64,000 bases of DNA from an uncultured Bacteroidales bacterium (GTDB lineage Bacteria; Bacteroidota; Bacteroidia; Bacteroidales; UBA932): NCBI GenBank assembly GCA_944323505.1, contig CALUST010000015.1:119407-183406 (forward strand). The letters run 5' to 3'. Position 1 is the first letter of the stretch, and every line of letters starts with the position of its first letter. This document shows positions 49,512 to 64,000 of this stretch, piece after piece. A program made the position numbers and the translations under genes. The notes beneath the pieces were generated by a model. That model saw only the letters and a list, made by a program, of their open reading frames with translations. It had not been told where the DNA came from and ran no database searches.

Positions 49512-50075
49512 ATGTTAGACAGAGCAAAAGAAATCCTTGCATCGGCCAAGACAAAGATGGGCGATGCCGTGAAGTTCCTCGAAGAGGACATGAAGACATA
49601 TCGTGCCGGCAAGGCCAATCCTTTGGTATTCAACAATGTCATGGTGGATTATTACGGAAGTGAGACCCCTGTTCCCCAGGTGGCTTCCGTCACTGTTCCG
49701 GATGCGAAGACCATATTGATACAGCCGTGGGAGAAAAAGATGATTCCTGTCATCGAAAAGGCCATAATGGACGCCAACATCGGACTTACTCCGCAGAACA
49801 ACGGGGAGAGCATCAGATGTGCTGTGCCGCCTCTTACCGAAGAGAGAAGGAAGGAACTCATCAAGAAGGTCAAGACGGCAGCCGAAAATGCCAAGATAGT
49901 GATCAGAAATTCTCGTCGTGACGCCATCGAGGCCTTGAAAAAGGCTCAGAAGGACGGTATGCCGGAAGATGTCCAGAAGGAATACGAGCAGAATGTCCAG
50001 AAGGAGACAGACGCATTCGTGAAGAAAGTGGACGAACTCGCTTCCGCCAAGGAGAAAGAGATAATGACTGTCTGA
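49512..50075 (+). CDS. frr: Ribosome recycling factor
   Basis: 187 residues, normal for RRF. The three-helix bundle shows MGDAVKFLEEDMKTYRAGKA, the hinge domain has MVDYYGSETPVPQVASVTVP and the last helices have VRNSRRDA-like VIRNSRRDAIEALKKAQKDG. It splits post-termination ribosomes with EF-G. Its stop lies just before the promoter of the aromatic amino acid operon. Confidence 0.96.
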   Translation: MLDRAKEILASAKTKMGDAVKFLEEDMKTYRAGKANPLVFNNVMVDYYGSETPVPQVASVTVPDAKTILIQPWEKKMIPVIEKAIMDANIGLTPQNNGESIRCAVPPLTEERRKELIKKVKTAAENAKIVIRNSRRDAIEALKKAQKDGMPEDVQKEYEQNVQKETDAFVKKVDELASAKEKEIMTV

Positions 50076-50082
50076 CATAAGT

Positions 50083-50112
50083 TTTGCAATTAGAAAAAAT
50101 TTAGTATTTTTG
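50083..50112 (+). promoter_or_regulatory. Promoter of the pheA operon
   Basis: TTTG (50083-50086), an 18-base spacer and TATTTTTG (50105-50112) match the Bacteroidetes promoter pattern. The first start codon of the leader peptide follows eight bases after the box, so the leader mRNA is nearly leaderless. Confidence 0.7.
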
Positions 50113-50120
50113 TTCCCGTT

Positions 50121-50180
50121 ATGATGGATTTTCGATTTAGCGCATTCGGTTTTTTTCATTTCTATTACCATGAGCGGTGA
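50121..50180 (+). CDS. Phe/Tyr-rich leader peptide of the pheA operon
   Basis: A 19-codon frame, MMDFRFSAFGFFHFYYHER, with six Phe and two Tyr codons, stops at TGA 50178-50180. It lies between a strong promoter and a strong intrinsic terminator, directly upstream of prephenate dehydratase. This is the layout of a transcription attenuator: scarce charged tRNA-Phe or tRNA-Tyr would stall the ribosome in the run of F and Y codons and favour read-through. Hairpins visible after it are GACC/GGTC (50183-50193) and ACAG/CTGT (50198-50209). ATG 50121 or 50124 may be used. Confidence 0.75.
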   Translation: MMDFRFSAFGFFHFYYHER

Positions 50181-50230
50181 TGGACCGGAGGTCGCGTACA
50201 GAATCCTGTCTTGTTGATAAAGGGAAATAT

Positions 50231-50261
50231 AAGGCTGTCCGGAATCACGGACAGCCTTTTT
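50231..50261 (+). terminator. Attenuator terminator before pheA
   Basis: AAGGCTGTCCG (50231-50241) pairs perfectly with CGGACAGCCTT (50248-50258) around GAATCA and runs into five T. The 5' arm can also pair weakly upstream (AGGCTGT 50232-50238 with ACAG and CCT at 50198-50207), a possible antiterminator. Confidence 0.8.
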
Positions 50262-50301
50262 ATTGCGTCCGCGGCTCCGAAGCACAAAAATTGAGATCAA
50301 G

Positions 50302-51147
50302 ATGAAAAGAACGGCTATCCAAGGTTATTCGGGATCATTTCATGAGCAGGCTGCCAGACTGTTCTACAGCAGTATGGGCGATGCCGGGATTATGAATGCG
50401 GATCTGCAGATTGTCGAATGCGACACATTTGACGGACTTTATGACGCCCTGCGGGACAATCGTGCGGATGCGGCGGTGATGGCAATAGAGAACACTGTCT
50501 CCGGAGGGCTTCTTCCGAACTTTGAACTTCTCAGGAGGCATGACGTGAAGATAAAAGGGGAGGTCTTCCTGCGCATTCAGCAGAATCTCATGGCTCTCCC
50601 GGGCCAGAGGATAGAAGATATAAAGGAAGTCAGGACGCACTATATGGCCATCAACCAGACCCGCCCGTTCTTCGCTTCCTATCCACACATAAGGCTTGTC
50701 GAGTCGGAAGATACGGCGAAAAGCGCGGCGGACATCGCCGCTGGCAGGCTTCTGGGCGTCGGGGCGGTGGCATCGGTCCTTGCAGCAGAACTGTACGGAT
50801 TGGAGATTCTGCAGGCGAGCATCGAGACCTACAAGCAGAATTTCACGAGATTCCTCATCATGGACGACAGCCTTTCCGTGCCCCGGGACAGGATCACCAA
50901 GGCTTCGTTGTGCTTCACCCTCCCGCACAAGACCGGCTCATTGGCGCAGATACTCACCATCTTGTCGTTCTATGACATGAACCTCACAAGGATACAGTCT
51001 CTGCCTATACCGGGGCGCGAATGGCAGTATTTCTTCTATGTCGATGTCAAGTTCGGCTCTTATCAGCGGTATTGCCAGGCGATAGCGGCAGTAAGACCTC
51101 TGATGGAAGACCTGGATGTTCTCGGCGAATATGCCGCTGCCATCTGA
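50302..51147 (+). CDS. pheA: Prephenate dehydratase
   Basis: 281 residues from ATG 50302; upstream in-frame alternatives fall in the terminator. The catalytic domain shows IQGYSGSFHEQAARLF, CDTFDGLYDALRDNRADAAV, AIENTVSGGLLPNFELL and NFTRFLIM; the C-terminal ACT domain has ASLCFTLPHKTGSLAQILTI with YDMNLTRIQSLPI, which normally binds Phe for feedback control. It converts prephenate to phenylpyruvate. No chorismate mutase domain is attached; that activity is in the third gene of the operon. First structural gene after the leader attenuator. Confidence 0.95.
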   Translation: MKRTAIQGYSGSFHEQAARLFYSSMGDAGIMNADLQIVECDTFDGLYDALRDNRADAAVMAIENTVSGGLLPNFELLRRHDVKIKGEVFLRIQQNLMALPGQRIEDIKEVRTHYMAINQTRPFFASYPHIRLVESEDTAKSAADIAAGRLLGVGAVASVLAAELYGLEILQASIETYKQNFTRFLIMDDSLSVPRDRITKASLCFTLPHKTGSLAQILTILSFYDMNLTRIQSLPIPGREWQYFFYVDVKFGSYQRYCQAIAAVRPLMEDLDVLGEYAAAI

Positions 51148-51183: not shown

Positions 51184-52428
51184 ATGATAATCAGGCCGTC
51201 ACACAGAACGGAAAGCGTTCAGGAATATTATTTCTCGCGGAAACTCAAGGAAATTGACCGGCTTGACTCTGAGCGGACAGCCTCCGGAGCCGACAGGATC
51301 ATCAACCTCGGGATCGGTGCTCCCGACGGTATGCCTCCTGAGGCTGCCATAAAGGCTCTTGTCGACTCGGCTGCCATGAAAGGTAATCATGCGTATCAGA
51401 GTTATACCGGACTGAAAGAACTGCGGGAGGCTTTTGCCGGGTGGTATGAGAGATTCTACCATGTCACACTTGACCCTGGCTGCGAGATCCAGCCTCTTGT
51501 CGGCTCAAAGGAGGGGATTCTTCTCATTTCACTGGCATTCCTGGACAAGGGGGACAAGGTCCTCGTCCCGGATCCGGGCTATCCGACCTATTCTTCTGCC
51601 ACAAGACTTGCCGAGGCAGAGATTGTCACCTATGACCTGTGCGAGGAGAACGGATGGCTTCCTGATTTCGATGCCCTGGAGCGGGCGGACCTGTCCGGAG
51701 TGAAACTGATGTGGACAAACTATCCGAATATGCCGACAGGCGCGGCTGCATCTGCCGGGCTGTATGCCAGGCTTGCAGATTTCGGCAGGCGGCACGGAAT
51801 CCTGATATGTAACGACAATCCTTACAGTCTCATCCTCAACGACAATCCGCTTTCCATACTTGCTGCGCCCGGGGCCATGGAGTGTTGCCTGGAGCTCAAT
51901 TCGCTGAGCAAGGCCCATAACATGTCGGGATGGAGGATAGGTATGGTGGCAGGGGACAGGGAGTATATATCCCAGATACTGAAAGTGAAGAGTCAGATGG
52001 ATTCCGGGATGTTCAAGCCGCTCCAGCTGGCAGCGGTCGAGGCCCTTTCGCAAGGCAGGGAATGGTTTGCCGCCCTTAACGGAGAGTACCGTGAAAGGCG
52101 CAGGCTGGCGGGAAGGATATTTGATATCATCGGCGCCGGCTACGACAGGGACAGCACCGGGCTTTTCCTTTGGGGCAGAATCGGGGAGGACAACCCTCTT
52201 CTGGCGAAGGCGGATGCCGCAGTCTCGGACACGGCGGGGCAGAGCCTCGGAGAACAGGTGTCAGACCGCATCCTGTACGGGGCAGGGGTGTTCATTACTC
52301 CGGGCTTCATTTTCGGGAAGAACGGAAGAAACTATGTCAGAATCTCCCTGTGTGCAGACAGAGAGACTCTTGGGCTGGCATCAGACAAGATAAGGACGCT
52401 TATGACAAATCAGACAAATAAAATATGA
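51184..52428 (+). CDS. Class I/II PLP aminotransferase
   Basis: 414 residues. Fold type I motifs: NLGIGAPDGMPPEAAIKAL, HAYQSYTGLKELREAFAGWY, PDPGYPTYSSATRLAEAEIV, WTNYPNMPTG, CNDNPYSLILND and the PLP lysine in ELNSLSKAHNMSGWRIGMV. Between prephenate dehydratase and DAHP synthase its likely role is transamination of phenylpyruvate or prephenate in Phe/Tyr synthesis; the family also includes LL-diaminopimelate and aspartate aminotransferases. Its stop overlaps the next start by four bases (ATGA). Confidence 0.9.
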   Translation: MIIRPSHRTESVQEYYFSRKLKEIDRLDSERTASGADRIINLGIGAPDGMPPEAAIKALVDSAAMKGNHAYQSYTGLKELREAFAGWYERFYHVTLDPGCEIQPLVGSKEGILLISLAFLDKGDKVLVPDPGYPTYSSATRLAEAEIVTYDLCEENGWLPDFDALERADLSGVKLMWTNYPNMPTGAAASAGLYARLADFGRRHGILICNDNPYSLILNDNPLSILAAPGAMECCLELNSLSKAHNMSGWRIGMVAGDREYISQILKVKSQMDSGMFKPLQLAAVEALSQGREWFAALNGEYRERRRLAGRIFDIIGAGYDRDSTGLFLWGRIGEDNPLLAKADAAVSDTAGQSLGEQVSDRILYGAGVFITPGFIFGKNGRNYVRISLCADRETLGLASDKIRTLMTNQTNKI

Positions 52429-53525
52429 AGACTATGGAAAAGAATCTGGAAATCATGCCTGTCGGAAGATGGGGATTGTTCCCTGACGGACTTCCGCTTA
52501 TGATAGCCGGCCCTTGCAGTGCCGAATCAGAGGTGCAGATAATGGAGACGGCCAGAAGATTGAAGGCGCTTGGCATCAATGTGTTCCGTGCCGGTATATG
52601 GAAGCCGAGGACACATCCGAACACCTTTGAGGGAGTGGGGACGAAGGGACTGAAATGGCTGCAGCGCGTAAAGAATGAACTCGGGATGAAAATCTGTACT
52701 GAAGTGGCATCAGAAAGGCATGTCTTCGACTGTCTGAAATTCGGAGTCGATATGGTGTGGATAGGGGCACGGACGACTGCCAATCCGTTCCTGGTGCAGG
52801 AGATTGCTGATGCCTTGAAGGATACTGGGATACCTGTCCTGGTCAAGAATCCTGTCAATCCTGACCTTGACCTGTGGATAGGTGCGCTGGAAAGACTCAA
52901 CCAGGCCGGAATAATGAAGTTGGGAGTGATTCATAGAGGGTTCTCCACCTTTGAGAAAATCAGGTACCGCAACAGCCCCGAATGGCAGATTGCGATAGAG
53001 TTGAGAAGCCGTTATCCCGAGATGCCGTTCTTCTGTGACCCGAGTCACATGGCCGGTGACAGGAAGTATATCCGTGAACTTTCCCAGAGATCGCTTGACC
53101 TGGGGCTTGAAGGTCTGATGATAGAGTCGCATTGCGACCCTACCTGTGCATTGAGCGATGCCGGTCAGCAGCTCCTCCCCGAACAGCTCGGAGAGATGAT
53201 GAAGAGCCTTGTCGTGCGTGCCCATGATACGGACAGTCCCGAATACAAGGAGAACATCGACCAGTTGAGGGCGCAGATAGACGTCATCGACGAGAGCCTG
53301 CTGTCTCTTCTCGGTTCGAGGATGGGTATCAGCCGCCAGATAGGTGAGTATAAGAAAGTCAACAACATCGCTATCCTGCAGACATCCCGCTGGGATTCCA
53401 TCCTGGAAAGGATGATTGCGAAAGGGGCGGAGTACGGTCTGCCTGAACACTTTGTGACAGTGGTGTTCAACGCCATCCACGATGCGTCAGTCCAGGTGCA
53501 GAACGATATCCTTTCAGATGAATGA
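52425..53525 (+). CDS. Bifunctional DAHP synthase / chorismate mutase
   Basis: 366 residues. Residues about 1-265 are a DAHP synthase of the KDO8P-synthase-like type (MIAGPCSAESEVQIMETARR, FRAGIWKPRTHPNTFEGVG, KPVNPDL-like KNPVNPDLDLWIGALERL, CDPSHMAGDRKYI). Residues about 275-366 are an AroQ-type chorismate mutase (NIDQLRAQIDVIDESLLSLL, SRMGISRQIGEYKK). The first makes DAHP, the entry of the shikimate pathway; the second makes prephenate for PheA. Fusion of the two is known in Bacteroidetes. No prephenate dehydrogenase (tyrA) follows; the next gene is lpxK on the other strand with a 12-base overlap. Confidence 0.95.
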   Translation: MKTMEKNLEIMPVGRWGLFPDGLPLMIAGPCSAESEVQIMETARRLKALGINVFRAGIWKPRTHPNTFEGVGTKGLKWLQRVKNELGMKICTEVASERHVFDCLKFGVDMVWIGARTTANPFLVQEIADALKDTGIPVLVKNPVNPDLDLWIGALERLNQAGIMKLGVIHRGFSTFEKIRYRNSPEWQIAIELRSRYPEMPFFCDPSHMAGDRKYIRELSQRSLDLGLEGLMIESHCDPTCALSDAGQQLLPEQLGEMMKSLVVRAHDTDSPEYKENIDQLRAQIDVIDESLLSLLGSRMGISRQIGEYKKVNNIAILQTSRWDSILERMIAKGAEYGLPEHFVTVVFNAIHDASVQVQNDILSDE

Positions 53526-63889: not shown

Positions 63890-64000
63890 ACAAAGAAGAG
63901 TTTGATCCTGGCTCAGGATGAACGCTAGCGGCAGGCCTAACACATGCAAGTCGAGGGGCAGCGCGACGGTAGCAATACTGTTGGCGGCGACCGGCGCAAG
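63890..64000 (+). rRNA. 16S ribosomal RNA, 5' end
   Basis: The universal 5' sequence AGAGTTTGATCCTGGCTCAG starts at 63897 and continues with GATGAACGCTAGCGGCAGGC and CACATGCAAGTCGAGGGGCA, a Bacteroidales-type start. Position 1 is set at 63890 by matching the E. coli numbering of the AGAGTTTG motif. The gene runs out of the window after 111 bases. Confidence 0.97.

Follow-up and report, generated by a model that had tools for sequence, protein, structure and literature searches.

In Escherichia coli, the leader peptide before pheA carries Phe codons and answers to charged tRNA-Phe, as stated in the accessible portions of two papers (PMC11802643, PMC8262941); this is the enterobacterial precedent that had been invoked in a first-pass annotation of the DNA described here. 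In Corynebacterium glutamicum, the aroR leader precedes aroF (Neshat et al. 2014, as described in PMC11802643). According to the accessible part of that description, it is a Phe-Tyr-Phe leader before a DAHP synthase gene, and ribosome stalling on it raises transcription. The Sinorhizobium meliloti trpL leader ORF lies at the 5' end of its transcript (PMC7298713, in part). From the same phylum as the window is Flavobacterium psychrophilum, in which pheA and hisG are preceded by structured 5' elements; the accessible text reports the pheA element in other Flavobacteriaceae genera as well, finds no Rfam hits for it, and speaks of strong clues for leader-peptide attenuation before amino-acid operons (PMC9723704). 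A 2010 paper, as far as its accessible portion goes, states that demonstrations of leader-peptide systems had previously been limited to Proteobacteria and Actinobacteria, aside from the ermC leader, which it treats as atypical, and its own case is from Firmicutes (PMC2965389).

The literature that we found mentions leader-peptide control of amino-acid synthesis in Bacteroidota but describes little of it. A comparative study by Lopatovskaya et al. from 2010 may already predict attenuation in this phylum. Attenuation as a kind of control is known, and for pheA in Flavobacteriaceae it has already been hinted at in print (PMC9723704, accessible part).

Here, one probable attenuator of Bacteroidota is described with all of its parts, from the genus to the phylum, together with the conservation and covariation of the parts and the in silico energetics of each state. 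It lies in a stretch of 64,000 nucleotides from an uncultured Bacteroidales bacterium, which we call the window. The element is very probably a ribosome-mediated attenuator that controls an operon of pheA, an aminotransferase gene, and a gene for DAHP synthase fused to chorismate mutase in response to charged tRNA-Phe and, probably, charged tRNA-Tyr. A Phe-type attenuator had been proposed at this site, and the putative element is supported by its relatives, by covariation, by segment 2:3 complementarity, and by ribosome modeling.

The window locus shares with enterobacterial pheA/pheL a Phe-codon leader peptide before pheA, a likeness drawn from leader, codons, and gene. It differs in that no Rfam leader family matches the window leader, Phe and Tyr codons are mixed, the predicted start is near-leaderless in most leaders, and the operon adds the aminotransferase and DAHP synthase/chorismate mutase genes (and tyrA in relatives). 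The F. psychrophilum element belongs to the same phylum and the same gene, but in the accessible text it is described without an analysis of leader peptide, codons, or antiterminator (PMC9723704). Unlike the element in the window, aroR comes from another phylum, has a single Phe-Tyr-Phe run, and is reported, in the part of the source at hand, not to respond to Tyr availability (PMC11802643). The trpL leader concerns Trp and is alphaproteobacterial, and its RNA starts with the ATG, whereas a 3-nt 5' UTR is predicted here (PMC7298713, in part). Natural variants of the element (tandem copies, lost leaders, and a tyrA-less operon) make codon-level predictions directly testable.

Results and discussion

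Locus, operon, and promoter

The window belongs to a 1.93-Mb assembly with a completeness of 90%, and its closest pheA relatives (the best 80 of 353 pheA matches) are labeled Candidatus Cryptobacteroides or uncultured Bacteroidales. The features of the locus are collected in Table 1. The operon that had been proposed is borne out by the Pfam domains of its three genes, and the start of the DAHP synthase gene overlaps the stop of the aminotransferase gene (52425-52428). A 16S rRNA gene begins at the window end (63890-64000, by Rfam).

Table 1. Features of the pheA leader and its neighborhood in the window
Feature	Position	Strand	Basis or remark
frr, ribosome recycling factor	49512..50075	+	PF01765; 5' neighbor, outside the attenuator
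TTTG, presumed -33-type promoter element	50083..50086	+	from sequence
-7 box TATTTTTG, TAnnTTTG type	50105..50112	+	from sequence
Predicted transcription start, purine 6 nt past TTTG, 3-nt 5' UTR	50118	+	inferred from conserved spacing and sequences
Leader peptide ORF, MMDFRFSAFGFFHFYYHER and stop	50121..50180	+	translation; homologues at 59/80 loci
Segment 1, GCGCATTCGG, inside leader ORF, pairs with segment 2 (protector)	50140..50149	+	MFE fold
Hairpin across last aromatic codons and stop codon, protector, possible pause hairpin	50161..50184	+	covariation
Segment 2, CCGGAGGTC, antiterminator 5' strand	50185..50193	+	CCGG nearly invariant
YGYG just 3' of hairpin, candidate RNA polymerase pause site	50193..50196	+	conservation
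Segment 3, AAGGCTGTCCGG, common to antiterminator and terminator	50231..50242	+	core GCTGTCCGG
Intrinsic terminator, segments 3:4, with T run	50231..50261	+	fold and covariation
pheA, prephenate dehydratase, ATG at 50302	50302..51147	+	PF00800
Class I/II aminotransferase	51184..52428	+	PF00155
DAHP synthase fused to chorismate mutase	52425..53525	+	PF00793 + PF01817

The promoter that had been read upstream of the leader stands: a TTTG, which we take to be a -33-type element, is followed by the -7 box and then, after 8 nt, by the leader ATG at 50121. A TAnnTTTG box is found 5' of 59 of the 60 leaders, the remaining locus being incomplete; the consensus is that of PMC9723704 (accessible part). 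A sigma-70 scan gave a 9/12 match, which we dismissed because the scan had no model of Bacteroidota promoters.

Conservation of the leader frame

The 19-codon frame, with its six Phe and two Tyr codons, is present as first described. A homologous Phe/Tyr leader, defined by at least five Phe plus Tyr within the last 17 residues of the mini-ORF, precedes pheA at 59 of the 80 related loci, and a segment 3 motif of the GCTGTCCGG type follows the leader in all 59 and in the window. Within the genus, 307 of the 341 cells of the aligned six-codon run are Phe or Tyr (Tyr 163, Phe 144); the other 34 are S (22), C (7), H (2), G (1), D (1), and I (1).

Beyond the genus, a similar leader lies before pheA in 46 of 48 Bacteroidales regions, the window included, when a stretch of twelve residues with six or more aromatic ones and a terminator by relaxed criteria are called for; by this measure L150 and L152 have no leader. 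The order set comes from 129 Bacteroidales drawn, 52 of them with pheA. We used 49 of the 51 non-window genomes (G047 and G072 were left out), and two loci without usable upstream sequence (L125, L153) brought the set to 48 regions including the window; one locus, L112, is from the same genus as the window. In a phylum-wide draw, pheA was found in 172 of 198 genomes. Inspection covered the 29 non-window loci with the best scores, 25 from the window's class and 4 from other classes; all but L186 (28/29) reach the ORF threshold. The comparison of relatives proposed in the first-pass annotation therefore finds Phe/Tyr codons conserved at genus, order, and phylum level.

Chance was gauged on the 350 nt 5' of pheA by taking ATG-started frames of 8 to 45 aa and scoring each region by the highest Phe plus Tyr count in any 12 residues of a frame. 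Scores of at least 8 occur in 34/81 Cryptobacteroides-type regions (window included), 33/47 order-level regions, and 22/29 phylum-level regions, compared to 0/1620, 0/940, and 0/580 dinucleotide shuffles and 0/81, 0/47, and 0/29 reverse complements. At a score of at least 6, the real regions give 57/81, 43/47, and 28/29, the shuffles 7/1620, 31/940, and 24/580, and the reverse complements 0/81, 3/47, and 1/29, in the same order.

A gene-blind search was also made, with a leader-RNA model holding no part of pheA, in 393 Bacteroidales genomes, at least 112 of which match at E <= 0.01. Thirty loci were examined; 7 of the 27 examined from other genera lie directly 5' of pheA, each with a Phe/Tyr leader. 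Many weak matches are confined to the 3' portion of the model and resemble plain terminators, and weak matches were not scored as leaders.

Terminator and its relation to frr

The leader RNA with its terminator (50115-50272) folds 3.1 sd better than its own shuffles. The 11-bp stem and T run reported ahead of pheA are there: the stem (50231-50258) has 11 pairs, 7 of them G-C, around a 6-nt loop, and the run is of five T (50257-50261). In an alignment of 57 of the 60 leaders (the near-identical L005, L066, and L073 were left out), the terminator covaries, with two-sided change in five pairs and in 51 cells, a level that 0/500 shuffles reach; the count of further pair types is ordinary (149/500 shuffles). 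The 3' arm is more variable than the 5' arm, mostly through changes to G-U, and in the segment 3 core GCTGTCCGG only 4/513 cells deviate from the consensus. The simplest reason for so invariant a segment opposite a varying arm is that segment 3 has a second partner.

The hairpin might instead be a mere terminator of the frr operon, with pheA served by another promoter and the mini-ORF incidental, and by eye four relatives (L039, L059, L071, L077) do keep a similar terminator right behind frr with the leader gone. In the window, however, the TAnnTTTG promoter and the leader stand between frr and the terminator, and the box recurs before nearly all leaders, as given above. Nine relatives have the leader but no frr in the flank, and outside the genus leader and terminator precede pheA without frr, which is near pheA at 0/28 order loci and 0/29 phylum loci. 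Conservation extends, moreover, to the aromatic codons and to the complementarity between segments 2 and 3. We regard an frr terminator as a very improbable account of the element.

Antiterminator, protector, and candidate pause site

Along with the aromatic-codon-rich short ORF and the intrinsic terminator before the first structural gene, the leader has an alternative antiterminator that uses the 5' arm of the terminator, and a protector hairpin that hides the antiterminator strand in ribosome-free RNA, the segment 1:2 pairing itself being without covariation. The segment 2 box, CCGG[A/G], begins 0 to 6 nt past the leader stop codon in 60/60 leaders, and the last aromatic codon is followed by 3 to 5 residues before the leader ends; these spacings are the right geometry for attenuation.

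In the genus alignment, 93.9% of 342 cells of segments 2:3 pair, with at most weak covariation in the core (score matched by 33/500 shuffles), which is barely visible because the CCGG core is too invariant. Across Bacteroidales, segments 2 and 3 change together, for example GCTTTCGGGATT/AATCCCGAAAGC in L116 and AAGGTGAGGC/GCCTCACCTT in L146. For the 46 order-level leaders, the mean is -13.16 kcal/mol for cognate segment 2:3 duplexes and -8.82 for non-cognate ones, and re-pairing the arms gave so low a mean in 0/10,000 permutations. In 12/46 the cognate arm is the top-ranked one (median rank 4), and the cognate duplex is weaker than -6 kcal/mol in 7/46 (L115, L122, L124, L139, L143, L144, L159). 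The covarying terminator and antiterminator stems that were to be looked for are thus both seen, the terminator within the genus and the antiterminator order-wide in the cognate comparison, but not inside the genus, where its core is near-invariant.

Of the small hairpins noted earlier, one covaries. This hairpin, at the stop codon, is paired in 94.0% of 498 cells and has 43 two-sided cells, where shuffles give 13.9 (0/500 shuffles have as many), but the number of pairs with two-sided change is not above chance (474/500). Segments 1:2 are paired in 92.1% of 242 cells with no covariation among the aligned genus leaders; one of the five pairs fails in 17 sequences, and 6 to 11 leaders are gapped there.

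Nine to 12 nt past the stop-codon hairpin is the YGYG motif, with Y in 57/57 leaders at both Y columns and G in 52/57 and 49/57. From this conservation and its distance to the hairpin, YGYG may be a polymerase pause site coupling ribosome and polymerase; the published pause consensus is Y-1 G+1 (PMC9291695, accessible part).

A terminator/antiterminator layout of this kind is common to tRNA-binding T-boxes and metabolite riboswitches, either of which might replace a translated leader. At the gathering threshold, no Rfam family matches in the leader, and over the whole window Rfam finds only 16S rRNA, with the T-box core not recognized; with the threshold relaxed to E up to 10 over 50050-50310, five unrelated weak matches appear, none of them a leader, T-box, or riboswitch. 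Conservation at the order and phylum levels lies, instead, in the reading frame itself with its Phe/Tyr codons, so that a T-box or riboswitch seems to us exceedingly improbable. One may also suppose that the product of the mini-ORF is active, either in trans or as an arrest peptide, and that the codons matter through this product; within the genus, conservation often takes in the residues that flank the run, R-F-S/N and Q-K-R, too. These flanks coincide with segment 1 and the hairpin arms, an overlap that can account for their conservation, and outside the genus the flanks differ while the aromatic richness remains; we give an active peptide very little credence.

Ribosome modeling and the proposed switch

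In a simplified model, all RNA from the ATG to the leading edge of the ribosome was held unpaired. For transcripts ending at segment 3, the antiterminator is the best fold in 56/60 leaders with the ribosome stalled at the fourth-last aromatic codon and in 55/60 with it stalled at the last, compared to only 9/60 without a ribosome. Once the ribosome has reached the stop codon, it is the best fold in 0/60, a result fixed by the model, in which segment 2 is then blocked. In full-length folds, the terminator wins in 55 to 60 of the 60 leaders in every ribosome state, and in the window it wins in all five states. Full-length transcripts thus prefer the terminator whatever the ribosome does, and the switch must therefore be kinetic.

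We propose the following sequence of events. RNA polymerase would initiate a few bases 5' of the leader ATG, and a ribosome would load at the near-leaderless start. With ample Phe (and Tyr), the ribosome would reach the stop codon and mask segment 2, segments 3:4 would pair, and transcription would end at about 50261. A shortage of charged tRNA would stall the ribosome in the Phe/Tyr run, where it would cover segment 1 together with the hairpin's 5' arm but leave segment 2 free to pair with segment 3 once that is made; no terminator would then form, and pheA would be transcribed. Without a ribosome, segment 1 and the stop-codon hairpin would sequester segment 2, and the terminator would form.

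Predicted near-leaderless start

The distance from the TAnnTTTG box to the leader ATG, taken as the farthest in-frame ATG up to 12 codons upstream, is exactly 8 nt in 37 of the 60 leaders, 9 nt in 2, and 11 to 52 nt in 20, with one unreadable. In the 8-nt class, a purine six bases past the box suggests a 3-nt 5' UTR. The leaderless start suggested earlier agrees with the 8-nt spacing of the window and of these 37 leaders, but it is not universal: with this spacing in only 37/60, a near-leaderless start is predicted to be common and not required. In Bacteroides thetaiotaomicron, 5' UTRs under 10 nt are rare, at about 3.7% (PMC7366714, accessible part). The sensing ORF is thus predicted almost at the 5' end of its transcript in a phylum with few short 5' UTRs.

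Tyrosine codons and the missing tyrA

That the adjacent Tyr codons read tyrosine supply, as had been suggested, is sensible in the relatives and weaker here. The 30 best-scoring of 49 relatives were inspected, and all 30 have tyrA placed between the aminotransferase gene and the DAHP synthase gene; for 22 of these 30, the pheA end is inside the examined flank. The gene is present in 49 of the 50 relatives' genomes considered (50 of the 80 loci), and the one without it, L006, is a 5.3-kb contig piece ending just past pheA. In the window's 90%-complete assembly, neither tyrA (by its PDH_N domain) nor phenylalanine hydroxylase, which turns Phe into Tyr, was found. Since the operon is contiguous across the tyrA site, a true deletion is likelier than missing sequence, and the absence looks like a real deletion. 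Without tyrA, the bacterium is a predicted tyrosine auxotroph.

With no tyrA found in the assembly, the two Tyr codons of the window leader may be a relic. Five of the 60 leaders, the window's included, have just two Tyr codons in all, and in the six-codon run the window has 2, compared to 3 in L002, 3 in L003, and 4 in L004; the lower count in the window is one case and proves nothing.

The leader may sense Phe alone, the Tyr codons being tolerated as single-base neighbors of Phe codons. At order level, 2/46 leaders have no Tyr and 0/46 have no Phe; tyrA was not found in the window's assembly; and in C. glutamicum the availability of Tyr has no effect on the aroR leader in spite of its Phe-Tyr-Phe run, according to the accessible part of PMC11802643. 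Yet in the six-codon run Tyr is as common as Phe (163 and 144 of 341) and other residues are rarer, and tyrA is within the operon in every one of the relatives inspected. Sensing of Phe alone is a real, though doubtful, possibility.

The combined picture that we put forward, tentatively and with considerable reserve, is that of an old, vertically inherited family of aromatic attenuators in Bacteroidota, in which interchangeable Phe and Tyr codons would truly read both amino acids and the ribosome would load near-leaderless. In the window, deletion of tyrA would have left a Phe-only operon, with Phe synthesis tied to an outside Tyr supply and the Tyr codons decaying.

Lost, duplicated, and variant leaders

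The leader is absent in 21 of the 80 relatives, 14 without frr in the flank and 7 behind frr. In the four loci noted above that keep a terminator behind frr, the terminator arms are of the ACTGTCCGG or GCTGTCCGG type, and they are possibly decayed attenuators. Two tandem Phe/Tyr leader-terminator units precede pheA in 8/78 regions (L113, L122, L124, L143, L144, L151, L158, L101). L084 (955-1638) has promoter and leader twice; the copy that comes first lacks the segment 2 box and the terminator and precedes a small gene that looks lipoprotein-like by eye.

In three loci, a Trp codon adjoins the aromatic run (FYFYFWTIL in L154, YFYFFWTIL in L155, and FFYFFWTIL in L160), and judging by these codons the leaders perhaps read all three aromatic amino acids.

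A search for sister attenuators in the window's 90%-complete assembly did not find the his, ilv, and trp operon markers PF01634, PF00920, and PF00425; homoserine dehydrogenase is present, and the available locus sequence starts inside its reading frame. Leu/Ile/Val-rich leaders, MRNSLLHIVALILILVQST and the GTG-started MKNIYLHIISIILLVLIIQGL, occur in two relatives, L089 (1501-1634, minus strand) and L100 (1501-1648 plus the repeat that follows). Both have a similar stop-codon box and terminator and stand before a dihydroxy-acid dehydratase gene (PF00920), and in L100 the entire Leu/Ile/Val leader unit is tandemly repeated.
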